Shown: positions 13,329 through 22,936 of the stretch, piece after piece
Position numbering within the stretch: the first letter of the stretch is position 1
How the letters are laid out: each line of letters starts with the position of its first letter
Assembly: GCF_900104725.1 (NCBI RefSeq)
Contig: NZ_LT629758.1
Span: forward strand, 248,001-312,000
DNA length: 64,000 nucleotides
DNA from: Actinoplanes derwentensis
Lineage (GTDB): Bacteria > Actinomycetota > Actinomycetes > Mycobacteriales > Micromonosporaceae
Reading direction: 5' to 3'
The notes under the pieces: model-generated
The model's input: the letters and a program-made list of their open reading frames with translations, nothing else
The model's database searches: none
What the model was told of the DNA's origin: nothing
Made by a program: the position numbers and the translations under genes

Positions 13329-14111
13329 ATGGGAAACGTGGCAGACGACCTGAACCTGGCCCTGGAAGCCGCTCTCGCGGGTTCCGCCGTCGCACTGCGG
13401 CACTTCGCGGCCCTCGCGGAGCTGCCCCGGGAGCTCAAGAAGGACGGCTCGGTGGTGACCGCCGCCGACCGCGCCGTCGAGGACCGGATCCGCGAGGTGC
13501 TCACCGAGGCCCGCCCCGGCGACGCCATCCTCGGTGAGGAGCACGGCGAGACCCTCGGCACCGAGGGCCGCCGCTGGATCATCGACCCGATCGACGGCAC
13601 CCACCTGTTCGTCGAGGGTGACGACCGCTGGCTGGTTCTGATCGCACTGGAGGACCACGGCGAGATCACCGTCGGGGTGGCGGCGGTTCCGGCGCAGGGC
13701 CGCATCTGGTGGGCGGTGCGCGGCGGAGGAGCCTTCGAAGCGGTCGTACGGGGTACCGAGATCGTGGACGAGCAGCGCATCCACGTCGCGGACGGCCCCA
13801 CTCCGGCGCTCGCCGACACCCGGCTCGGGGTGGTGCCGCACTGGGGCCGGGAACCCTTCACCGCCCTCTTCGAGGCCGCCGACGAGCGGGAATGGCCGCT
13901 GCAGCCGGCCCTGCTGGTGGCCCGCGGCGACCTGGACCTGTCGTTGCAGACCGGCGGCCAGATCTGGGACTTCGCCGCCACCTCGCTGATCGTCACCGAG
14001 GCCGGCGGCTACTACCGGGGGCTGGACGGCCGGACCGTGCCCGGCCCGGGCGCGGCGCTGTCCGGCCGCGACGCCGACGTGGTCGCCGCGGCCTTCGGAG
14101 CCCTGGCCTAA
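13329..14111 (+). CDS. hisN: Histidinol-phosphatase, inositol-monophosphatase family
   Basis: A Mg-dependent phosphatase of 260 residues. Visible active-site motifs are KKDGSVVTAADRAVED, ILGEEHGE (metal-binding Glu), WIIDPIDGTHLFVEGDDRW (metal-binding DPIDGT) and GGQIWDFAATSLIVTEAGG. The sequence is nearest to actinobacterial HisN, which removes phosphate from L-histidinol phosphate in histidine synthesis; inositol phosphate hydrolysis is the alternative. ATG 13329 follows GCGAGGGCAGG; GTG 13338 is also possible. It is divergent from the acyl-CoA synthetase and overlaps the convergent FHA gene by 4 nt. Confidence 0.88.
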   Translation: MGNVADDLNLALEAALAGSAVALRHFAALAELPRELKKDGSVVTAADRAVEDRIREVLTEARPGDAILGEEHGETLGTEGRRWIIDPIDGTHLFVEGDDRWLVLIALEDHGEITVGVAAVPAQGRIWWAVRGGGAFEAVVRGTEIVDEQRIHVADGPTPALADTRLGVVPHWGREPFTALFEAADEREWPLQPALLVARGDLDLSLQTGGQIWDFAATSLIVTEAGGYYRGLDGRTVPGPGAALSGRDADVVAAAFGALA

Positions 14112-14761
14112 GGGGCGTGCAGGGTGATCGTGGTCCACGCGCCGACGTGGACCTGGTCACCGTCTTTCAAGGTGCGGGACCGGCCTGCGCCCAGCGGCTG
14201 GTCCTCGTCGTTGATCCAGGTGCCGTTCGACGAGCCGACGTCGGAGACCAGCCACGCGCCGTCGATGCTCAGCGTCAGCAGCGCGTGGCTGTGCGACACG
14301 CCCGGGTCGGAGGGTTCGGCGGCCAGGTCGATCTCCGGGTCGGTGCCCTTCGACGTGCTCTTGCGCCCGATCCGCACCTGCGGCGGCACCAGCGTGACGA
14401 TCTGCGGCAGGGTGCCCGCCGGGAAGACGACACCCTCGATGTCGTTGAGCGCGAAGAACTCCTGATCCGGCACCACCGTCGCGGTCCACGGCCCGGCCGG
14501 GGCCGCGACCGGCGTGGGCGCGTCGATCTGCGGGACCCGGCCGGTGTTGTGGTCGAACCCGCAGTCCTCACAGAACCGGAACGGCCCGCTGCGGGGATAA
14601 CCGCAGTTCGGGCACTTCTCCTTCGGCGGGGCGGTGACCAGCGAGGGCGGCGCCTGGATGAGGATGGTGGCCGGGGCCGAACCCTCGATCCGGGTGCCGC
14701 AGGTGTCGCAGAAGTCGGGCTCGCCGGAGGCGTGACCCTTCGGGCAGGGGTACGTGCTCAC
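14108..14761 (-). CDS. FHA-domain protein with two N-terminal zinc ribbons
   Basis: A 217-residue cytosolic protein, last gene of the GlnX-PknG operon. The N-terminus has two zinc-binding motifs: C6, H10, C18, C21 (YPCPKGHASGEPDFCDTCG) and C50, C53, C64, C67 (EKCPNCGY...RFCEDCG). A Pro/Ala linker follows, then a FHA domain from about residue 125: VRIGRKSTSKG, GVSHSHALL, VSDVGSSNGTWIN, which hold the conserved Gly-Arg, Ser-His and Asn phosphothreonine-binding residues. It probably reads Thr phosphorylation made by the operon's kinase, comparable in role to mycobacterial GarA, but it lacks GarA's N-terminal ETTS site. GTG start overlaps the VWA stop (GTGA). Confidence 0.9.
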   Translation of the reverse strand: MSTYPCPKGHASGEPDFCDTCGTRIEGSAPATILIQAPPSLVTAPPKEKCPNCGYPRSGPFRFCEDCGFDHNTGRVPQIDAPTPVAAPAGPWTATVVPDQEFFALNDIEGVVFPAGTLPQIVTLVPPQVRIGRKSTSKGTDPEIDLAAEPSDPGVSHSHALLTLSIDGAWLVSDVGSSNGTWINDEDQPLGAGRSRTLKDGDQVHVGAWTTITLHAP

Positions 14762-16023
14762 TGCCCCCGCCCCACGCGCACGGTCTTGGTCGACCGGGTG
14801 TCCAGGGCCATCTCGTCCTCGACGGCCACCTTGCGGCGCAGCCGGACCGTACCGGTCACCGGGTCCTCGATGTCCACCACCTTGGCCAGCAACTCCTCGG
14901 TGGCCTTGTTGCCGCTGGCGTGCGCGAGCTGCGCGGCCCGGCCGAACTTGATGGTCGCGGTCCGGTCGTCTCCGGCTTCCCGCGCGGCGATGCCCTCCTG
15001 GATCGCGTCGGCCAGCTCGGCCTGCCCGGTGTAGTGGGCGACCTGCCGGTTGATCCGGGTGGACAGCGCGGTGTCGTCGGTCCACACCGCCCGGATCAGG
15101 CCACGGGCGTGCTCGGTGTCGCCCTCCATCACGTGCACCCGGGCGGCGAGCATCTCGTCACCGGCGCCACCGGCCGGCACGTCGACGCAGATGTGGTAGT
15201 CGCGGCTCTCCTGGCCCCACGAGCCGAGCGGGTAACGGCCGGCCCGCGGCCCGTCCTCGGCGCGCTTGCCGGTCAGGTCGGCGACCACCGGTTCCACCTG
15301 CTTGACGAACCGGACCGTGGCGTTCACCGGCGTCCACACCTTGAGCTGCACATCGGCGCTGGTCTTGCCCATCGCCGCGGTGATCATCTGCTGGAACGAG
15401 GCGGTCAGCTCGGCCGGTTTGGCGACGATGTCGACCGTACCCAGCATCTTGTCGGCGATCTTGCGCAGTTCGGCGACCTTCCAGCTGGCGCCGACCCCCC
15501 GGCAGTCGCAGACGAACGACTCCTTGATCTGTTCGAGGACCGTCTCCAGGTAACCCTGCCGCTCGCCGTTGTCGCCGTCGGTCAGCAGGATGGCGTGTTT
15601 GATATCGCCCGGCCGCTGCGCGAACAGCTGACCGGCCAGCAGCAGCCAGGCGCCCATCGCTGTGCCGCCGTTGGCCTGCAGCCGGTCGATCGCGTGTTCG
15701 GCCTGCGCCCGGGTCTGCGGCGAGGAGACCGCCAGTTCACCCGGACCGGGGAAGAGCTGCTGGGCGGTACTGACCCCGGCGATGATCGCGAAGTGGACAC
15801 CGTCGTCGATGCACTCGACGGCGGCTTTCGCGGCCTGCCGGGCAGCGGCGATCCGGCCCTCGGCCTGCATCGATCCGGACGCGTCGACAATGATGATCTC
15901 GGTCGCGCCACCGGTCCGGCGGCCGCCCTCGCCACCGGTCGACGTCACCGTCACGATCGCGTTGACTTCACGGGCGCCCAGGGCGAGGTATTCGTTCTGG
16001 AAGGCCTCGGCGGTGTAACTCAC
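14758..16023 (-). CDS. VWA-domain protein of the PknG operon
   Basis: A 421-residue protein with a von Willebrand A domain at about 40-220: IIIVDASGSMQAEGRI holds the MIDAS DxSxS motif, and HAILLTDGDNGER the later Asp. The C-terminal half is beta-rich then helical (EQVEPVVADLTGKRAEDGPR..., DEMLAARVHVMEGDTEHARG). No signal peptide is visible, so it is cytosolic. VWA proteins bind partners through a metal ion; paired with PP2C and FHA genes, similar proteins occur in Ser/Thr kinase loci. It begins 12 nt after the PP2C gene and overlaps the FHA gene by 4 nt. Confidence 0.88.
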   Translation of the reverse strand: MSYTAEAFQNEYLALGAREVNAIVTVTSTGGEGGRRTGGATEIIIVDASGSMQAEGRIAAARQAAKAAVECIDDGVHFAIIAGVSTAQQLFPGPGELAVSSPQTRAQAEHAIDRLQANGGTAMGAWLLLAGQLFAQRPGDIKHAILLTDGDNGERQGYLETVLEQIKESFVCDCRGVGASWKVAELRKIADKMLGTVDIVAKPAELTASFQQMITAAMGKTSADVQLKVWTPVNATVRFVKQVEPVVADLTGKRAEDGPRAGRYPLGSWGQESRDYHICVDVPAGGAGDEMLAARVHVMEGDTEHARGLIRAVWTDDTALSTRINRQVAHYTGQAELADAIQEGIAAREAGDDRTATIKFGRAAQLAHASGNKATEELLAKVVDIEDPVTGTVRLRRKVAVEDEMALDTRSTKTVRVGRGQ

Positions 16024-16035
16024 GGTCGGGACTCC

Positions 16036-17169
16036 TTACGGCAGTTCGGTGGTCTCGGGATCCGGCGTCTTCGGTTCAACCGGCCGCACCGGGATCAGCG
16101 CGACCGTGATGTTGTCCCCGCCGCCCGCCGCGTTGGCGTAGGCGACCAGCGCCCGGGTCGCCCCGAGCAGGGAGTTCGCGGTGTCCAGGCAGTCCCGGAC
16201 GACCGAGCCGAACTCGGCCGCGTCGGGCAGGTAGTTCCACAGACCGTCGCTGCACAGGACCAGATGACCCGGCTCGGCGGCGGTGAACGACCGCACCCGC
16301 GGCGCCACCGGCCCGGCGTCGGCGCCCAGCCAGGCGGTGATCGCGTGCGCTTTCGGGTCGTTCATCGCGGTCACCGGGTCGACGCCCAGCGAGATCACGT
16401 GGGCGGCCCACGAGTCGTCCTCGGTGAGCTGCTGTGCCGGGCCGTCCGGGCCGAGCCAGTAGATCCGGCTGTCGCCGACCCAGCCGTAGCCCACGTGCGG
16501 GCCACGGACCGCGGCGGCGATGATCGTGCAGGCCGGGTTCGCGGCGGCCCGGCGCGGATCGCCGGTGTGCGCCAGCGACGCCACCGCGGCCGCCGCACCG
16601 GCGATCGCGTGCGACACCGCACCGGCCAGGCCCAGCGCGCCGAGCGGGCGCTCCAGCCCTTCCAACTCGGCGGTCTGGTCCGGGTTGCCGTCGTCACCGG
16701 GCAGCGGCTCGTCCGGGTGGCGGGCACCGGCCAGCAGCTCGCCGGCGGCGCGGACGGCGATGTCCGACGCGGCGTCCGGGTCGAACGAGGCCGAGACCCC
16801 GTCACAGACCACCACGTCGGCGGCCTCCACCCCGACGGCCAGCCACATCGCGTCCTCGTTGCGATGGTGGCGGCGGCCGCGGTCGCTCACCGCGGCGCCC
16901 GAGGGGCCGCCGTCGGCCTCCAGATGATCACGCGATCGGCCGGCCATCATGCCGCATTCCTCGCAATACCCGTCGTCGCCCACGGAACCGGCCGCCCCAC
17001 AGCGCGCACAGTCCTTTTTAGCCGCCGGCGGCTCGGGTTCGGAAGTGGGTTCGGAGGTTTCGGCGAGTTTACGCCCGCACGCCTCGCAGAAGGACGCGCC
17101 GCCGGCACGCTCCTCGTCGCACGAGGTGCATTCGGTCACGATCATCGGTGCGGGTCCCGCCTCTCTCAC
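16036..17169 (-). CDS. PP2C-family Ser/Thr protein phosphatase with two zinc ribbons
   Basis: A metal-dependent phosphatase of 377 residues, likely partner of PknG. Zinc ribbons: C14, C17, C28, C31 and C54, C57, C69, C72. The PP2C domain (about 90-360) shows SDRGRRHHRNEDAMWLA (R-x-x-N-E-D), VVVCDGVSASFDPDA, YGWVGDSRIYWLG, HLVLCSDGLWNYL and AAGGGDNITVALIPV, the acidic metal ligands being present. The C-terminal tail ends PKTPDPETTELP. The GTG start overlaps the pknG stop by 4 nt; an in-frame ATG at 17145 would remove 8 residues and leave the ribbons intact. Confidence 0.92.
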   Translation of the reverse strand: MREAGPAPMIVTECTSCDEERAGGASFCEACGRKLAETSEPTSEPEPPAAKKDCARCGAAGSVGDDGYCEECGMMAGRSRDHLEADGGPSGAAVSDRGRRHHRNEDAMWLAVGVEAADVVVCDGVSASFDPDAASDIAVRAAGELLAGARHPDEPLPGDDGNPDQTAELEGLERPLGALGLAGAVSHAIAGAAAAVASLAHTGDPRRAAANPACTIIAAAVRGPHVGYGWVGDSRIYWLGPDGPAQQLTEDDSWAAHVISLGVDPVTAMNDPKAHAITAWLGADAGPVAPRVRSFTAAEPGHLVLCSDGLWNYLPDAAEFGSVVRDCLDTANSLLGATRALVAYANAAGGGDNITVALIPVRPVEPKTPDPETTELP

Positions 17170-19454
17170 GTCCGCGTCCGCGGGCGTACCGCGTTCGCCA
17201 GGTCTACCAGGCGGATCTTCTCCGCGCCGTGTGTGGCCCGGGCCATCTCTCGGTATGCCGACTCCAGCGCGAACCGCACGTCACGTTCCGGCGCCTTCTC
17301 CGCCGGGGTACCACCGATCACCGTGGCCAGCACCGGTGTGTCGATGGCCGCACCCCCGCCGATGGTCCGCAGGGTCTGTTCCAGCAACTCGGCCCGCAGT
17401 GCCGCGAGCTGAGCCGCCTCCACCTCGAGGCGGGCGATCAGCCCGGCCGCGGTGGCGAGCGAGTCCACGTCCACGACCGCCGACTGATGGGCCCGGACCA
17501 GGGCCCGGATCGCGCCGATCTGCGAACTCGAGTAGGCCGACGAGGTGCCCGGCACCCGGCTGTACGCCTCGACCGCCCCGGCCCGGTCGCCGCCGGCCAG
17601 CCGGCAGCGGGCCAGTCCGGCGGCGGCCGTCGTGTAGGCCGGGTCGGTGCGGCTGACCACGTCGTAGTGGGCGCACGCCGCTGCCGCGTCGCCGGCCAGC
17701 TCGGCGGTCATGCCGAGAGCCAGCTGCGGGGCCAGTTCGCCGGGCAGCGCCGACCACACCGCGTCGAACCTCTGCCGAGCCCGCGGGAAGTCACCGGTGG
17801 ACAGGGCGAGCAGGCCGTCGTACCAGTCGATCCGCCAGTCCGCGGACTCCCGGCCCAGTTCGTCGCGGACCTCGGCCGCCTTCGCCGCGTCACCCTGATC
17901 GACGAACGCCCGCAGCCGCCGCAGCAGCACCTCCACCGAATCCTGCGGGGCGCTGGCCAGCTGCGCCAGGACCGTCTTCGGGTCGGCGGCGGTGATCGAC
18001 GCGAGCAGGCCCGCCGCCGGGTCGCTGAGATCGACGAGCGGTGTCGGCAGGTCCTGCCAGCGGGCCCGGTCGTCGCGCAGGTCGGTGCGCAGCTCCCCGG
18101 TGAACCAGCGGGACACCGCCGGATGCGGGGTGCCACTGGCCGCGAGGACCTGCCGCAGTACTCCGAGCATCTGTTCGGCCATCTCGGCCGCGTCACCGAA
18201 CCGCTCGTCCCGGTCGGTGCGGGTGGCCCGCCGCAGCAGCCGGTAGAAAGACTCGTGCCGGGAGTACGCCTCGAAGTCGCCACGGTCCGGCAGGCTGTCG
18301 GCGAACGTGCTCTGGTACCCGCGGAAGTCGGTGGTGAGCACCGCCAGGGTCCGGCCGATGGTGTAGAGGTCGGACTGCGGCGACGGCCCCTGCGCGGCCA
18401 TCTCCGGCGCCTGGTAGCCGACGGTGCCGTAGATCGCCGCGTCCTCGTCGTCGATGTGCACGACACCGCCGAGGTCGATCAGTTTCATCTGGTCGCCGGA
18501 CTGGATCACGTTGTCCGGCTTGAAGTCGCAGAAGATCAGCCCACGGTCGTGCAGGTAACCGAACGCGGGCATGATCTCCAGCACGTACGCCAGGGCCTGC
18601 TCCACCGGCAGCGGGCTGACCACACCGTTGACCCGGCGCTCCTTGAGCACGTCCTTGAGCGACTTGCCGCCGACGAACTCCATCACGATGTAACCGGCGC
18701 CGTCGTGCTCGACGAAGTTGTAGATCTTGACGATGTTCGGGTGCTCGACCTCGGCCAGGAACCGCTGTTCGGCCACCGCCGCCGCCAGAGCGTCCTCGTC
18801 ACGTGAGTTGAGCAGGCCCTTGAGTACCACCCAGCGGTCCGAGACGTTCTTGTCGGCGGCCAGGTAGATCCAGCCCAGGCCGCCGTGCGCGAGCGCGCCG
18901 ACCACCTCGTACTGCCCGGCGACCAGGTCACCCTTGGTCAGCTTTGGGGTGAAGTTGAACGCCTCGCCGCAGCTCGGGCAGTACCCCGACGGGCGGGCCT
19001 CCCGATCGCCGCGGGCCCGGCCGACCGCGTTGCCGCACTTGGCGCAGTACCGTTTCGACTCCGGCACCTCGGCCACCGCCATCACCGCGGTCGCCGGGTC
19101 CGCCTGCCGGATCGGTGCGATGTCCACCAGGCCGCCGCCGAAGCGGCGGGCCGATCCGGTGCGAGAGGTTCCGGTGCGAGAGGACCCCCTGCTGGTACGA
19201 CTGGACAGAGCACTGCTCCGAGCCGAACCCTTGGTGGCCTTCGTCGCGGTGGCGGCGGGCGCCAGCCCACACGTGTCGCAGTAGCCGTCCTCGATCGCCC
19301 CGTCACAGCCCGGCCGGCGGCACTTACCGTCGTCCGCCTTCACTACCGGCTTTACCGCCGGTGTGCTGGGTTCGGCCACCGGCGCCAGTCCGCAGTAGTC
19401 GCAGTAGCCGTCCTCGATCGTGCCGGAGCAGTCGTCACGCTGGCAGTTGGTCAT
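17166..19454 (-). CDS. pknG: Serine/threonine protein kinase PknG
   Basis: A soluble kinase of 762 residues. Two near-identical zinc motifs lead (C4-x4-C9-x8-C18-x2-C21, and C45/C50/C59/C62, both IEDGYCD-C-GLAP). A Ser/Thr/Arg-rich stretch (74-104) follows, then a rubredoxin-like site C137/C140/C159/C162 as in mycobacterial PknG, kinase domain about 178-440 (GALAHGGLGWIYLA, VVLKGL, GLIFCDFKPDNV catalytic loop, KLIDLGGV, YGTVGYQAPE) and a TPR-like C-terminus. In mycobacteria PknG acts downstream of GlnH/GlnX to control 2-oxoglutarate and glutamate metabolism through GarA; gene order supports the same here. The doubled N-terminal ribbon is an addition relative to mycobacterial PknG. ATGA overlap with the upstream gene. 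Confidence 0.95.
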   Translation of the reverse strand: MTNCQRDDCSGTIEDGYCDYCGLAPVAEPSTPAVKPVVKADDGKCRRPGCDGAIEDGYCDTCGLAPAATATKATKGSARSSALSSRTSRGSSRTGTSRTGSARRFGGGLVDIAPIRQADPATAVMAVAEVPESKRYCAKCGNAVGRARGDREARPSGYCPSCGEAFNFTPKLTKGDLVAGQYEVVGALAHGGLGWIYLAADKNVSDRWVVLKGLLNSRDEDALAAAVAEQRFLAEVEHPNIVKIYNFVEHDGAGYIVMEFVGGKSLKDVLKERRVNGVVSPLPVEQALAYVLEIMPAFGYLHDRGLIFCDFKPDNVIQSGDQMKLIDLGGVVHIDDEDAAIYGTVGYQAPEMAAQGPSPQSDLYTIGRTLAVLTTDFRGYQSTFADSLPDRGDFEAYSRHESFYRLLRRATRTDRDERFGDAAEMAEQMLGVLRQVLAASGTPHPAVSRWFTGELRTDLRDDRARWQDLPTPLVDLSDPAAGLLASITAADPKTVLAQLASAPQDSVEVLLRRLRAFVDQGDAAKAAEVRDELGRESADWRIDWYDGLLALSTGDFPRARQRFDAVWSALPGELAPQLALGMTAELAGDAAAACAHYDVVSRTDPAYTTAAAGLARCRLAGGDRAGAVEAYSRVPGTSSAYSSSQIGAIRALVRAHQSAVVDVDSLATAAGLIARLEVEAAQLAALRAELLEQTLRTIGGGAAIDTPVLATVIGGTPAEKAPERDVRFALESAYREMARATHGAEKIRLVDLANAVRPRTRT

Positions 19455-20641
19455 CGGGCCTCCCGGGCGGCGATCGTGGCGGAGAGCGCGTCCTGGTACG
19501 CGTCGACGGCGGACCGTGCCGCCGGCAGATCACACGGAGCCTGGTGCAGACGGTCACGGGCGGCCTCGGCGAGCGGGCCGAGAACCGGATCCTCACCGAG
19601 ACCACGGCGCAGAGCCTTGGCCCGGTACGCGTCGAGCCGCCCGCGCAGCTCGTTACGCTCGGTCAACAGGGCGGCGTTGCGCGCCGACGCGTCCCGCAGT
19701 GCGGCCAGCCGGTCGGTGGCCTGCCGGCGCCACGCCGACAACCGGGGGCTGATCAGCGCCCAGTGCCCGGCGGCGGCCAGCGCGTCGATCGCGGCCAGCT
19801 CCGGACGCGGATCCGTCATGCGTACCGCGATGATCTGGTCGTCGGGGAACCGCCCGGCCGCGGCGTCGCTCGTTTCGCCGGCCGCCCGCTGCGCCGCGTC
19901 CAAGTCGGCCAGCAGCACCCGCGCGTCCCGCAGCCGCTGGGCCAGCGACGCCTGCAACTCGGCCGCCGACGTCCGCTCCGCGTCCGCCCGGTCCACCAGG
20001 CTCCTGACGTCGGCCAGCCCGGTCAGGTCGGCGCCCAGCGGATCGGACAACAGGACCCGGGTGATGCCGCCGAGCAGCCGGTCGGCCTCGTCGAGCAGGC
20101 GGTCCGCCGCACCCGCCCCGGCCTGCCGGGTCAGGTCCCGGACCCGCTGCAGCGTGTCGGCGGCCTCGGCGGCGGCCGGCACCCCCCGGCGCCACGCCTC
20201 CCCGGCACCGGACACCACGGCGACCGCGGTCCGGAACGACGACTCCATCGCCGACAACAGCTCGGCCGGTGTGCAGGTGGCGACGACCTGTCCCGCGCCG
20301 AGCAGCCCGCGCTGCGCCAGCGGCACCGTCGCGGTGGACAGCGTGATCGACGGGCCGAGCACCTGATGCCGGTAGGCGTCCCGGTCGGCGTCGTTCATCC
20401 GCCGCTGCCCGCGCAGCGCCTCGGCCCGGGTGATCACCTCGGTCAGCTGCCGGTGCCCCTGCCAGAGGCGTTCCAGAGCGTCCGAGGCGTCGGCCCAGGC
20501 GGTCGCGGTGCGCCCGGTCAGCGTGATCCGGCCCAGCTCCTGACGGTCCGGGTTCTGGTCCAGCTCCACCAGGTTGGTGGCGATGGCGGCGACGGCACTG
20601 GTCAGCCGGGCCAGTTCGGTGTCGGCGGTCGTCGTACTCAT
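19451..20641 (-). CDS. Unknown helical protein between GlnH and PknG
   Basis: The 396-residue protein is almost wholly Ala/Leu/Arg/Asp/Glu-rich and predicted helical, with several long helices (RTAVAVVSGAGEAWRRGVPA, ADRLLDEADRLLGGI, ERTSAAELQASLAQRLRDAR, ATDRLAALRDASARNAALL). No signal peptide, membrane span, cysteine cluster or known motif is visible. ATG 20641 overlaps the glnH stop (ATGA) and its stop overlaps the pknG start, so it is made together with the receptor and kinase. A scaffold or adaptor linking membrane GlnX to soluble PknG would fit, but this is inference only. Classical mycobacterial pknG-glnH-glnX loci lack it. Confidence 0.85.
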   Translation of the reverse strand: MSTTTADTELARLTSAVAAIATNLVELDQNPDRQELGRITLTGRTATAWADASDALERLWQGHRQLTEVITRAEALRGQRRMNDADRDAYRHQVLGPSITLSTATVPLAQRGLLGAGQVVATCTPAELLSAMESSFRTAVAVVSGAGEAWRRGVPAAAEAADTLQRVRDLTRQAGAGAADRLLDEADRLLGGITRVLLSDPLGADLTGLADVRSLVDRADAERTSAAELQASLAQRLRDARVLLADLDAAQRAAGETSDAAAGRFPDDQIIAVRMTDPRPELAAIDALAAAGHWALISPRLSAWRRQATDRLAALRDASARNAALLTERNELRGRLDAYRAKALRRGLGEDPVLGPLAEAARDRLHQAPCDLPAARSAVDAYQDALSATIAAREAR

Positions 20642-21564
20642 CGGTACTTCGCCGCCGGTGGCTGCGGGGCCGGCGTGGTCAGCCACTTGTCGTAGATCTT
20701 CTGCCAGGTGCCGTCGCTGCGCAGCCGCTCGAACACGGCGTTGACGAACTCGGTGAACTCGGGATGCCCCTTGGCGACCGCCGCCGCGTACGGCTCGGAG
20801 GTGAACTTCGGGCCGACCACCTTGGCGTACGGGTCCTGGGTCGCCAGCCCGGCCAGGATCGTGTCGTCGGTGGAGATCGCGTCCACCTCACCCAGCTGGA
20901 AGGCGACCAGGCACTCACCGAAGTCGGCGCGCGCCACCGGGACCGGCCCGGTGCTGACCTTCGCGATGTTCTCCAGCGAGGTGGAGCCGGTGGCCGCGCA
21001 GACCGGGCGTTTCCCCAGGTCCTCGATCTTCGTCACGGCCGAGTCCTTGCCGACCAGCACCCGCTGGCCCGCCTCGAAGTAGACCGTGGAGAAGTCGACC
21101 AGCTCCCAGCGGGCGCAGTTGGTGGTCATCGTGCTGATGGCCAGGTCGACATCGCCGTCGACGACCGCGTTCACCCGGTTCGACCGGGGAACGACCCGGA
21201 TCTCCAGCTTGTCCGGATCACCGAAGATCGCCTCGGCGATCTCGCGGCCCATGTCGACGTCGAAGCCCTCGATCCGGCCGGTGAACGGGTCCCGCGAGCT
21301 GAACAGCAGGGTGTCCTGGGTGGTGCCGAGAACCAGCCGGCCCCGCTTGCGGATCTCCTGCATGTAGCTGCCGGCCGGCATCCGCACCCCCTGGGTGGGC
21401 CGGAAGCTGGCGCGGGCGTCACAGGTCTCCGGTGCCTTCGGGGCCGCACTGGTGGCTGCCGCTGACGGATCGGTTCGCGCCGTCGTCTCCTTGATGGGGG
21501 AGTCCGTGCACGCGGTCAATCCGGCGAGCAGGAGGGCGGAGCAGACCAGAGCAAGTCGTCTCAC
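20638..21564 (-). CDS. glnH: Amino-acid-binding lipoprotein GlnH
   Basis: A 308-residue lipoprotein with signal peptide and lipobox MRRLALVCSALLLAGLTAC (Cys19). The rest is a family 3 solute-binding protein: RKRGRLVLGTTQDTLLFSSR, GRIEGFDVDMGREIAEAIFG, DLAISTMTTNCARWELVDFS, PVCAATGSTSLENIAK and AKGHPEFTEFVNAVFERLRS. In mycobacteria GlnH binds aspartate, asparagine and glutamate-type ligands and signals through GlnX to PknG instead of feeding an ABC transporter. No transporter genes are adjacent here, which agrees. 4-nt overlaps on both sides. Confidence 0.93.
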   Translation of the reverse strand: MRRLALVCSALLLAGLTACTDSPIKETTARTDPSAAATSAAPKAPETCDARASFRPTQGVRMPAGSYMQEIRKRGRLVLGTTQDTLLFSSRDPFTGRIEGFDVDMGREIAEAIFGDPDKLEIRVVPRSNRVNAVVDGDVDLAISTMTTNCARWELVDFSTVYFEAGQRVLVGKDSAVTKIEDLGKRPVCAATGSTSLENIAKVSTGPVPVARADFGECLVAFQLGEVDAISTDDTILAGLATQDPYAKVVGPKFTSEPYAAAVAKGHPEFTEFVNAVFERLRSDGTWQKIYDKWLTTPAPQPPAAKYR

Positions 21565-22838
21565 CGGTACTCCTCCAGCCGGGCCCGCAGGCCGATCACC
21601 GCGAACAGACAGATCACCAGGGCCAGCAACGGCCCCAGCACGGTCAGCGAGCCCAGTCCCCGCCCGGCCGACTCGATCCGGCCGTCGAAGGCCGCGCGCC
21701 GGTCCGCCGAGGCTTCGTCCAGGGTCTTCGTGAGCTGGTCGAACGCGTTCGTCGTCTCGTCGCCGACGGCCAGCCGCACCGCACCCTCGTAGTCGCCGCC
21801 GTCGTCCAGCGAGCGGATCTTCTCATGCAGGCTCACGTACGTGTCGTGCTGCCCCGTCGCGGTGCCCATCAGGTCACGCACACCGTCGAGTTCCGGGCCG
21901 CCGAACGTCACCCGGCCGCGGATCGACGTGAACTCCGCCTCCAGCGCGCCACTGCCGGCCCGGGCGGCCAGGGTGAGTGCCTCGTCGGCCCGCTCGCGCA
22001 GCACCAGGATCCGTATCTCGGCCAGCGTGTCGACCGGCGCCGACCCCTCCCGGCCGGCGGCGGTGAGCTGGGACCGCTGGTGCGCGAAGACCACGGCGGC
22101 CCCCGCCAGCAGCAGCAGCGTGAGCGCGGACGCGGTCACCAGCGGCAGGTTGAACGTGCGGTGCGTGCTGCGGCTCAGGTGGGTCTGCGTCACGATCAGC
22201 GTCACCGCCAGGGCCGCGATCAGCACCCCCAGCAGGGTCAGCCACCAGCTGCTGCGGGAGCTGGTGTAACCCGCCTCGGCCTCGTGCCGGGCCTGCCGGA
22301 ACAGGACCTCGGCCTGCGGCTGGAGCGTCTCCCGGTTGAGCTTGGAGGCGGTCGACAGGTAGGCGGCACCGACCGGTTTGCCCTGCCGGTTGAGGGCCCG
22401 GGCGGTCGCGACCAGCGCGGCGTAGTCGGTGAGGCCGGTCGACACGGCCCGGATCGCCGCGGCGGCCGGCCCGTCGCCGGGCACCCGGCCGGCGGCCGAG
22501 GTCAGAGCGGTGGCGGCGTCGGCCAGATCCTTGTCGTACCGGGCGGTGAGCGCCGGGGGCTCCAGGCCGCCGGTGAGGAACGCCAGCGCGGCGGTGGTGT
22601 CCGCGTCGGCCAGCGACGAGTGGATCGTCTCGGCCTCGGCCAGCAGCGGCTGGGCCCGGTCCCGCAGATCGGCGGTGCCGGTGCCGGCCGACCATGCGGT
22701 GAGACCGGTCACCAGCCCGGCCAAGCAGGCCAGGGCCAGCAGGACGGCCAGCATCAGTTGCAGCCGGCCGGGCGAGGTGTGCCGCAGGCCGGCGAGCCGT
22801 CGTAACGCCACCTGAGGTGGCGCCTGTACCGCAGTCAC
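21561..22838 (-). CDS. glnX: Membrane sensor GlnX
   Basis: A 425-residue membrane protein, first gene of the operon. Four spans are visible: LMLAVLLALACLAGLVTGLT (about 28-50), WWLTLLGVLIAALAVTLIV, LPLVTASALTLLLLAGAAVV and a C-terminal LTVLGPLLALVICLFAVIGL. Two extracellular helical domains lie between spans 1-2 and 3-4 (helical bundle, rich in Ala/Thr/Asp), the probable GlnH docking surface. The short Arg-rich C-terminus is cytosolic. The GTG at 22838 has GAGAGGGC 8 nt before it and is preferred to 22883. It relays GlnH occupancy to PknG in mycobacteria. Confidence 0.88.
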   Translation of the reverse strand: MTAVQAPPQVALRRLAGLRHTSPGRLQLMLAVLLALACLAGLVTGLTAWSAGTGTADLRDRAQPLLAEAETIHSSLADADTTAALAFLTGGLEPPALTARYDKDLADAATALTSAAGRVPGDGPAAAAIRAVSTGLTDYAALVATARALNRQGKPVGAAYLSTASKLNRETLQPQAEVLFRQARHEAEAGYTSSRSSWWLTLLGVLIAALAVTLIVTQTHLSRSTHRTFNLPLVTASALTLLLLAGAAVVFAHQRSQLTAAGREGSAPVDTLAEIRILVLRERADEALTLAARAGSGALEAEFTSIRGRVTFGGPELDGVRDLMGTATGQHDTYVSLHEKIRSLDDGGDYEGAVRLAVGDETTNAFDQLTKTLDEASADRRAAFDGRIESAGRGLGSLTVLGPLLALVICLFAVIGLRARLEEYR

Positions 22839-22936
22839 TAGGGTGCCCTCTCGCTCTGGGATCGCACGTCCACTGTGCGTCACTGGCGCAAGCGATCGAG
22901 CAGGAGTGTACGACTGCCGTCCGACAGTTCCGCGGG

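Follow-up and report, generated by a model that had tools for sequence, protein, structure and literature searches.

Paired zinc ribbons on the PknG kinase, PP2C phosphatase and FHA protein of an Actinoplanes operon as probable docking tags for a VWA scaffold

An extended PknG operon

We analyzed a stretch of 64,000 nt (the window) from the soil bacterium Actinoplanes derwentensis (GCF_900104725.1, NZ_LT629758.1, 248,001-312,000); all positions below are window coordinates. A translationally coupled operon on the (-) strand includes the PknG, PP2C, VWA and FHA genes. The glnX, glnH and pknG genes lie together on one strand, with HEL between glnH and pknG, which is the arrangement of a GlnX-GlnH-PknG operon.

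21561..22883 (-), GlnX-family membrane transducer (NF058618, 361.1 bits, cut-off 250)
20638..21564 (-), GlnH-type solute-binding protein (PF00497, E 6.7e-28)
19451..20641 (-), HEL, family unassigned, a member of the extended operon that precedes pknG in relatives too
17166..19454 (-), PknG kinase (Pfam PknG_rubred, Pkinase and PknG_TPR)
16036..17169 (-), PP2C phosphatase with an N-terminal double zinc ribbon (PF13672, E 4.4e-15; PF12773, E 4.1e-5)
14758..16023 (-), VWA protein without a ribbon (PF18571, PF13768)
14108..14761 (-), FHA protein with an N-terminal double zinc ribbon and ArnA-like architecture (PF00498, E 9.9e-13; PF12773)

The start of HEL was chosen to give a 4-base overlap with glnH, and HEL gave no Pfam or NCBIfam match over the cut-off. 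The FHA gene starts at GTG 14759-14761, giving a 4-base overlap with the VWA stop. An earlier sequence-only reading of this DNA had recognized PknG, PP2C and FHA as tagged proteins and had overlooked the untagged VWA gene between the latter two.

PknG contains all three domains of its family (PF16919, PF00069 and PF16918), arranged as two N-terminal ribbons, a Ser/Thr-rich linker, rubredoxin, kinase and TPR, and its residues 103-759 align with PDB 2PZI. The mean pLDDT of its AF2 model is 82.1, with about 70 at ribbon 1 and 60 at ribbon 2. The GlnX-GlnH-PknG-OdhI/GarA pathway of Corynebacterium and Mycobacterium has a three-gene operon (PMC8546545, PMC6069109, PMC9769921). Our locus shares with it GlnX, GlnH and a PknG with kinase and TPR domains, and the genome encodes an OdhI/GarA orthologue outside this operon (205.2 bits, above the cut-off, compared with only 29.4 bits for the operon FHA protein). 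The published work on PknG cited here deals with this three-gene form. In contrast to that pathway, HEL, PP2C, VWA and FHA are added here, and PknG ribbons precede the rubredoxin domain.

Zinc ribbons at three N-termini

The metal-binding motifs are as follows.

19389..19445 (-), PknG ribbon 1, residues 4-22, C-x4-C...C-x2-CG (C4/C9/C18/C21)
19266..19322 (-), PknG ribbon 2, residues 45-63, a near-copy of ribbon 1 (C45/C50/C59/C62)
18966..19046 (-), PknG rubredoxin site C137/C140/C159/C162 (PF16919, E 6.9e-30)
17074..17130 (-), PP2C ribbon 1, residues 14-32 (C14/C17/C28/C31)
16951..17010 (-), PP2C ribbon 2, residues 54-73, ending in DGYCEECG (C54/C57/C69/C72)
14696..14746 (-), FHA ribbon 1, residues 6-22, C3H ligands (C6/H10/C18/C21)
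14558..14614 (-), FHA ribbon 2, residues 50-68 (C50/C53/C64/C67)

The sequence-only reading had placed two zinc-ribbon motifs at each of these N-termini and had named all of the ligands, including those of the rubredoxin site, correctly. When each N-terminus was shuffled 20000 times with its composition kept, two motifs never arose, and one motif arose by chance in 131, 156 and 64 of 20000 shuffles for the three N-termini. Of 222 window ORFs of at least 100 aa, four have a motif within residues 1-130, namely, PknG, PP2C, FHA and one 101-aa ORF.

Zinc ribbons might simply be common actinobacterial N-terminal add-ons with no shared role, and a genome search (10.65 Mb) with PF12773 (double zinc ribbon; curated cut-off 27.3 bits) did return matches spread across the genome, 20 of the 22 listed falling below the cut-off. 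However, the two best and the sole above-cutoff matches were FHA and PP2C from our operon (PP2C, 28.2 bits in this search; scanned as single proteins, FHA scored 29.9 bits and PP2C 24.1 bits). PknG was fourth among the 22 listed matches through its rubredoxin site (14.2 bits in the single-protein scan, under the cut-off), and its N-terminal ribbons, whose first knuckle is C-x4-C, were undetected by PF12773. Given also the conservation of the ribbons in orthologues and their co-loss with VWA, described below, coincidence is scarcely credible.

Conservation in orthologous operons

The tags recur on PknG, PP2C and FHA in actinobacterial orthologues. At least one N-terminal ribbon was found in 123 of 128 PP2C and 119 of 122 FHA proteins; two PP2C misses (L080 and L094) were wrong picks, the true PP2C there being tagged, and the remaining three FHA N-termini have a C-x-C variant. 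Among the other operon proteins, ribbons were found in 0/132 VWA, 0/131 HEL, 2/170 GlnX and 0/160 GlnH. Because the ribbons persist in orthologous operons, the absent or random distribution that had been named as evidence against a shared tag was not observed. The N-terminus comparison that the same reading had proposed upheld the tags on the three proteins but not their doubling on PknG, which usually has one. Strict PknG ribbons in 170 VWA-bearing operons numbered one in 119, two in 31, three in 6 and none in 14, and they do not support doubling as the essential PknG feature. Two ribbons are present on PP2C in 129/141 operons with VWA vs 3/14 without it, and on FHA in 131/142 vs 1/10, in both cases mostly in one clade.

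In PknG, C4, C9, C18, C21 and G22 are invariant (28 sequences aligned), and ribbon 2 is unconserved in most orthologues. Alignment of 27 PP2C sequences showed that the ribbon 1 cysteines are invariant, as are D106, D123, G124, D308 and D352, and that those of ribbon 2 are nearly so. All four ligands of FHA ribbon 1 are invariant (32 aligned), and the FHA AF2 model has a mean pLDDT of 90.8, with 92-95 for the first 20 residues.

The ligand cysteines are thus among the most conserved residues, and the PknG rubredoxin domain has been reported as oxidation-responsive (PMC6069109). Both points would suit ribbons that act as redox/zinc sensors, in which oxidation frees zinc and alters kinase, phosphatase and reader in parallel. 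We consider this unlikely. The PknGs of minimal GlnX-GlnH-PknG operons keep the rubredoxin domain, by which they were found, yet 31/34 have no Cys in the tag region (L215, L294 and L298 have a ribbon), which bears out the earlier remark that mycobacterial PknG lacks the doubled tag; PknG of the minimal, mycobacterial-type operon is untagged. Moreover, FHA ribbon 1 has a His ligand in 32/32 aligned sequences, and Cys is replaced by Asp in two FHA ribbons and by Thr in four PknGs, unlike a thiol switch. For the redox/zinc input through the tags that had been suggested initially, we found no support other than the rubredoxin domain, which was already known.

The VWA protein and its archaeal relatives

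The VWA protein is homologous to PDB 4FX5 along its full length, STKTVR tail included (4fx5_A, E 5.6e-116). To our knowledge, 4FX5 has no assigned function or partner. It is the Catenulispora acidiphila VWA protein Caci_2163, and its three-part fold was reported to match vWA2/ArnE, an archaeal ArnB paralogue (PMC6509490). The homology to 4FX5, together with this published comparison, implies a probable split beta-sandwich and C-terminal helical bundle in our VWA protein. Our protein also matches ArnB itself (8s05_A, E 9.4e-7, profile A4), with the similarity confined to the vWA domain (40-216).

The FHA profile matches ArnA (8s05_C, E 1.1e-10), and in this alignment FHA ribbon 2 lies over the zinc finger through which ArnA binds ArnB. 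In the 8S05 crystal, the zinc ribbon of the FHA protein ArnA docks on the vWA protein ArnB (PMC12852372), and this archaeal module has a kinase, ArnC, and a phosphatase, PP2A (PDB 8S05, 5A8I; PMC12852372, PMC6509490, PMC7472852). A zinc-ribbon FHA protein (with the ribbon at its N-terminus, as in ArnA), a vWA protein, a kinase, a phosphatase and a nutrient signal are common to both systems. In contrast to ArnA-ArnB, ribbons are found here on the kinase and phosphatase too, FHA has two, the genes form a single operon, the kinase is PknG with GlnX/GlnH as upstream sensors, and the docking is predicted only. The PknG ribbon spacing also differs from that of the ArnA finger.

We therefore hypothesize that the zinc ribbons probably serve as docking tags for the untagged ArnB-like VWA scaffold from the same operon. 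The shared docking tag of the sequence-only reading is supported by the comparison, with the amendment that the likely receptor is VWA and not the tagged proteins themselves. Ribbons might instead bind nucleic acid and take the signaling set to DNA or RNA, as proposed for the kinase-fused zinc ribbon of TerY-P triads (PMC11090510). However, these are small ribbons on a kinase, a phosphatase and a reader, Pfam revealed no other nucleic-acid domain, and the ArnAB finger is engaged by ArnB, in a structure that according to its authors gives no hint of DNA binding (PMC12852372). Such a role is very improbable.

Three further features could take part in phosphorylation-dependent binding.

19149..19265 (-), PknG Ser/Thr/Arg-rich linker, candidate phospho-anchor (AF2 pLDDT <50 for 63-101)
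14776..14793 (-), VWA C-terminal tail S411-T412-K413-T414-V-R416, candidate phosphosite
14141..14377 (-), FHA domain with conserved GR, S..H and NGT residues

The conserved GR, S..H and NGT residues of FHA domains bind pThr. In the VWA tail, S411, T414 and R416 are invariant (24 aligned), and the strict tail motif is present in 120/140 VWA proteins with an FHA gene vs 9/26 without one. FHA-anchoring autophosphosites have been reported in the flexible N-terminal region of Mtb/Cg PknG (PMC8546545). We infer that the STKTxR tail is a candidate phosphosite for the FHA reader and that the PknG linker is a candidate phospho-anchor.

In paralogous operons that lack both the PP2C and the FHA gene, the VWA C-terminus usually carries a fused ribbon. 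This fusion occurs in 15/21 such operons and in 0/150 others when 3 duplicate loci are included, and in 16/26 FHA-less and 0/140 FHA-bearing operons when duplicates are removed; on the tree, it represents one gain.

Co-loss of ribbon and VWA

Among 235 PknG cores, ribbon and VWA were both present in 168 cases and both absent in 45; nine had a ribbon only and none had VWA only. None of the 168 PknGs beside a VWA gene was scored as lacking a ribbon or remnant, a count that treats 12 variant or degenerate motifs, most of them hand-labelled, as ribbons. On the tree of these cores, 6/6 inferred ribbon losses fell in VWA-less lineages (rough chance 6e-5 by branch length), and the same six fell in PP2C-less lineages 4 times and in FHA-less lineages 5 times. 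Four of the six occurred where PP2C, VWA and FHA are all missing and so do not single out VWA. Ten ribbonless operons still hold PP2C and nine still hold FHA. The L134 clade alone sets VWA ahead of FHA, and this clade plus L209 sets it ahead of PP2C; much of the case for VWA over FHA thus comes from one clade. Sign tests on independent pairs did not reach 0.05.

Alternatively, the tags could pair among themselves, or their partner could be the membrane protein GlnX or HEL instead of VWA. The six losses fit HEL as well as VWA, HEL being absent in 47/47 scorable ribbonless operons, and GlnX occurs in nearly all operons. However, six loci (L272, L273, L281, L283, L289 and L291) lack HEL between the upstream gene and pknG and keep VWA and the ribbon, and ribbonless operons retain GlnX. 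Additionally, in the L134-type clade, a ribbonless PknG stands alongside ribboned PP2C and FHA, so pairing with the PknG ribbon is not required there. A partner other than VWA therefore appears rather unlikely.

Of nine genomes examined that have at least two copies, seven combine a ribboned copy, accompanied by PP2C and VWA, with a minimal Cys-free copy. Nine PknGs retain the ribbon without VWA in cis, and for five of these (L150, L215, L220, L294 and L298), another copy in the genome has VWA. Ribbonless PknG copies with VWA in trans are found in L135, L137 and L266 and as the minimal copies of multi-copy genomes.

A putative mechanism and its wider meaning

The analysis showed the tags, the operon, conservation, VWA co-loss, the ribbon-VWA fusion in paralogues and ArnA/ArnB sequence homology. 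Physical docking in this operon, zinc content, phosphosites and a GlnH/GlnX signal feeding the complex are inferred. In the putative mechanism, the ribbons would bring the kinase PknG, the eraser PP2C and the reader FHA onto a shared cytoplasmic VWA scaffold, each binding loosely, by analogy with ArnA-ArnB, to its beta-sandwich and helical C-terminal part. GlnH-GlnX would switch PknG, which may then phosphorylate threonines, with the VWA STKTxR tail and the Thr-rich PknG linker as candidates. The FHA domain would lock onto the phosphorylated threonines, and tagged PP2C on the same scaffold would reset the state.

More tentatively, and with some doubt, we speculate that archaea and bacteria have a common zinc-ribbon/VWA docking code, in which the ribbon is an interchangeable plug for kinase, phosphatase and FHA reader. 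The extended PknG operons, ArnAB and TerY-P triads might then be versions of one design, from which mycobacterial PknG would have been derived by losing the scaffold and the plug at once. Should the docking reading hold, the three-gene PknG form would be a reduced version of a larger module that includes an eraser, a reader and a scaffold, and what the missing parts do could be tested in relatives from Streptomyces or Actinoplanes. The structure 4FX5 would thereby gain a possible function, and docking of a ribbon on a VWA protein, as in the ArnA-ArnB crystal from archaea, would extend to kinases and phosphatases of bacteria.

Two further families resemble parts of the operon. TerY-P triads combine VWA, PP2C and a Ser/Thr kinase to which a zinc ribbon is fused (PMC11090510, citing Anantharaman et al. 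2012), and our operon likewise groups genes for VWA, PP2C and a ribbon-bearing kinase. However, the TerY-P kinase ribbon is C-terminal, whereas PknG has its ribbon at the N-terminus, and PP2C and the added FHA protein are tagged as well; a motif scan found no ribbon C-terminal of the PknG kinase domain, and we do not class the locus as a TerY-P triad. The PP2C domain is also similar to the PRK14559 / NF011149 Ser/Thr phosphatase family (79.6 bits, below the curated cut-off of 374), whose protein is longer than PP2C here. Members of that family have N-terminal zinc ribbons.

Results

Organization of the operon and its tagged proteins

The kinase PknG is encoded in the window within a run of seven minus-strand genes, in the order glnX, glnH, HEL, pknG, PP2C, VWA and FHA. 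Adjacent genes overlap by 4 bases at five of the six junctions, and PP2C and VWA are separated by a 12-base gap.

22883-21561, minus strand: glnX, GlnX family, above the cut-off
21564-20638, minus strand: glnH, solute-binding protein
20641-19451, minus strand: HEL, no family above the cut-off in the family search
19454-17166, minus strand: pknG, with PknG rubredoxin, kinase and TPR domains
17169-16036, minus strand: PP2C, phosphatase with a PP2C domain
16023-14758, minus strand: VWA, with VWA and VWA_3_C domains
14761-14108, minus strand: FHA, reader with an FHA domain

The Cys/His ligand positions that the sequence-only reading had named were all confirmed, with two N-terminal zinc-ribbon motifs apiece on PknG, PP2C and FHA; no N-terminal ribbon motif was found on VWA, HEL, GlnH or GlnX of the window. 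For each of the three tagged N-termini, none of 20000 shuffles yielded two motifs. When the 10.65-Mb genome was searched with PF12773, the only two matches above the cut-off were FHA and PP2C of this operon, and PknG ranked 4th among the 22 matches listed owing to its rubredoxin site and not to its ribbons. The third-best DZR-like match (G000:C1:8053007-8053063), below the cut-off, lies inside a 1313-aa open frame outside the operon. In the AF2 models, FHA has a mean pLDDT of 90.8, with ribbon 1 at 92-95; the corresponding values for PknG are about 70 for ribbon 1, about 60 for ribbon 2 and below 50 at residues 26-40 and 63-101.

Conservation of the tags in related operons

The closest named relatives, as judged by PknG, are Actinoplanes. 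Among the best 80 of 373 relatives found, a set biased to tagged copies because one of the six search patterns lies inside the PknG ribbon, pknG-PP2C-VWA-FHA occur together in Actinoplanes, Cellulomonas, Actinomadura, Nocardia, an Acidimicrobiaceae and a Solirubrobacteraceae MAG. In Actinomadura, glnX and glnH are placed after, not before, these four genes, and in Cellulomonas HEL was missed on first inspection. HEL (19451-20641) is conserved between glnH and pknG; in an alignment of 19 sequences, 14 positions are invariant, eight of them beyond residue 340. Further PknG regions were hand-picked from census tables and form a non-random sample; start codons were rule-based, with a small number of evidently misread N-termini (e.g., L208 and L221, L numbers denoting PknG loci in other genomes).

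Comparing N-termini across orthologous operons, as had been proposed, placed the tags on the same three proteins again. With duplicate loci included, at least one ribbon was present on 123 of 128 PP2C and 119 of 122 FHA N-termini, and on 0/132 VWA, 0/131 HEL, 2/170 GlnX and 0/160 GlnH proteins. In the aligned subsets (32 FHA, 28 PknG, 27 PP2C, 24 VWA and 19 HEL), seven of the eight FHA ligands never vary and the remaining one hardly does, at a mean column identity of 36%; in PknG, the first ribbon alone is invariant. Of 170 VWA-bearing operons, 119 encode a PknG with one strict ribbon, 31 with two and 6 with three; the other 14, without a strict ribbon, comprise 12 variant or degenerate motifs and two unreadable cases. 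The doubled ribbon was therefore abandoned as a defining feature of PknG, a single ribbon being the norm in VWA-bearing operons. Five loci of family f99 (L207, L212, L214, L219 and L220) carry a PknG ribbon with three Cys and with Thr or Ala as the fourth ligand.

Loss of the PknG ribbon and the presence of VWA

The census of PknG-like ORFs was reduced from 239 to 235 by dropping four duplicate loci. The ribbon state of 17 loci with degenerate, truncated, masked or misread starts was set by hand, three of them as unknown, and rows near contig ends were scored unknown, leaving 222 of the 235 usable. Ribbon and VWA in cis (in the same operon) were both present in 168 of these loci and both absent in 45; nine had the ribbon only, and none had VWA only. 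Among minimal operons (GlnX-GlnH-PknG only) with enough flank, 31 of 34 lack Cys in the PknG N-terminus, and L215, L294 and L298 are ribboned. The same pattern appears within genomes: in seven of the nine retrieved with at least two PknG copies, a ribboned copy accompanies PP2C and VWA and the other copy lacks Cys (L281/L282, L283/L284, L285/L286, L287/L288, L289/L290, L291/L292 and L296/L297). In the remaining two, the minimal copy (L294, L298) is ribboned too.

Nine PknGs keep a ribbon although their operon has no VWA (L150, L196, L205, L215, L220, L256, L294, L298 and L300), and for five of them VWA is encoded in trans, elsewhere in the genome. The near-minimal operons L294, L298, L300 and L205, ribboned without partners in cis, are possibly intermediates or in-trans users.

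On a tree of PknG cores built with FastTree only, parsimony placed six ribbon losses, all in lineages without VWA in cis; four of the six also lack PP2C and FHA. The chance figure of 6e-5 for six losses is a simple branch-length power and not a full test, and independent-pair sign tests of the ribbon association did not reach significance. Two losses are informative. One is a clade related to the window (L134, L135, L137, L245, L246, L264-L266 and L268), which keeps PP2C and FHA and lacks VWA, and also HEL where visible; the other is L209, which keeps PP2C alone of the partners. The clade retains one ribbon on PP2C in 9/9 loci and on FHA in 8/9, the ninth FHA probably having a misread start. 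In L134, L135 and L137 the first knuckle of the FHA protein is C-x-C, and a long repeat linker rich in Gln, Tyr and Pro connects the ribbon to the FHA domain.

HEL as the receptor of the tags would fit the six losses equally well, and was set aside since HEL can be missing with VWA and the ribbon kept. A dependence of PknG ribbons on FHA was likewise set aside; FHA is retained in nine ribbonless operons.

A ribbon and a conserved tail at the VWA C-terminus

With duplicate loci included, VWA-bearing operons without PP2C and FHA genes encode a C-terminal ribbon on VWA itself in 15 of 21 cases by pattern (L140, L149, L151, L153, L157, L175, L178, L183, L184, L233, L243, L253, L257, L274 and L275), plus a degenerate one in L255, compared with 0/150 in other operons. 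This ribbon is a single gain on the tree. By eye, that of L243 and L257 (GRFCERCxYD) is like FHA ribbon 2. In a protein-database search with the VWA alignment, the best 120 of 8000 scored were all close VWA proteins without extra domains, rarer fusions lying beyond this reach.

The window VWA ends in a conserved S-T-K-T-x-R. With duplicates removed and the search made around the domain end, this tail was found in 120 of 140 VWA proteins with an FHA gene versus 9 of 26 without, a clade-confounded difference. A strict tie of tail to FHA gene (101/143 versus 0/28) proved an artefact of a narrower pattern over the last 45 residues only.

Similarity to ArnA-ArnB

The FHA protein matches Sulfolobus ArnA in profile searches (8s05_C, E 1.1e-10; 5a8i, E 1.9e-10), and the ArnA zinc finger falls on its ribbon 2 in the alignment. 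When its model was used as a Foldseek query, FHA domains were returned, with ArnA at rank 25 among the 50 matches listed. VWA matches ArnB in a profile search (8s05_A, E 9.4e-7) and, across residues 4-419 of 421, PDB 4FX5 (E 5.6e-116), with which it has the tail STKTVR in common. The window FHA protein contains the usual conserved residues, which we take to be pThr-binding.

Discussion

The simplest account of these data is that the tags are plugs into a VWA scaffold, a predicted docking in which the ribbons would bring kinase, phosphatase and reader together and FHA-pThr contact would then be conditional on the kinase. This account explains why PknG, PP2C and FHA are tagged but VWA is not, why loss of the PknG ribbon is observed solely in operons that lack VWA, and why VWA usually bears its own ribbon when no tagged PP2C and FHA are encoded beside it, although this last ribbon can also be read as intramolecular or self-assembling. 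Docking of the tags on VWA would give them a specific, testable role in the extended PknG operon.

Given the VWA S-T-K-T-x-R tail and the pThr-binding residues of FHA, the two-step logic of ArnA-ArnB, by analogy, may possibly apply here: loose binding of ribbon to vWA protein, then locking by the FHA domain after phosphorylation. PDB 4FX5, from the actinobacterium Catenulispora acidiphila, is described as sharing its three-part structure with the ArnB paralogue vWA2 (Hoffmann et al. 2019, PMC6509490). In PknG of Mtb and C. glutamicum, the FHA substrate is recruited by autophosphorylated Thr residues of the flexible N-terminal region (PMC8546545); the counterpart of that region here is the linker of low model confidence that joins the ribbons to the rubredoxin domain. 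TerY-P triads combine VWA and PP2C with a kinase bearing a C-terminal zinc ribbon (PMC11090510). The three-gene PknG operon, TerY-P triads and ArnAB are already known; in the open-licence literature searched, we found nothing joining pknG with a zinc ribbon and, by title, nothing on pknG and von Willebrand that concerns this operon.

A separate OdhI/GarA orthologue (205.2 bits) is encoded elsewhere in the genome. Therefore, FHA of this operon probably serves as an extra reader and not as the classical PknG substrate.
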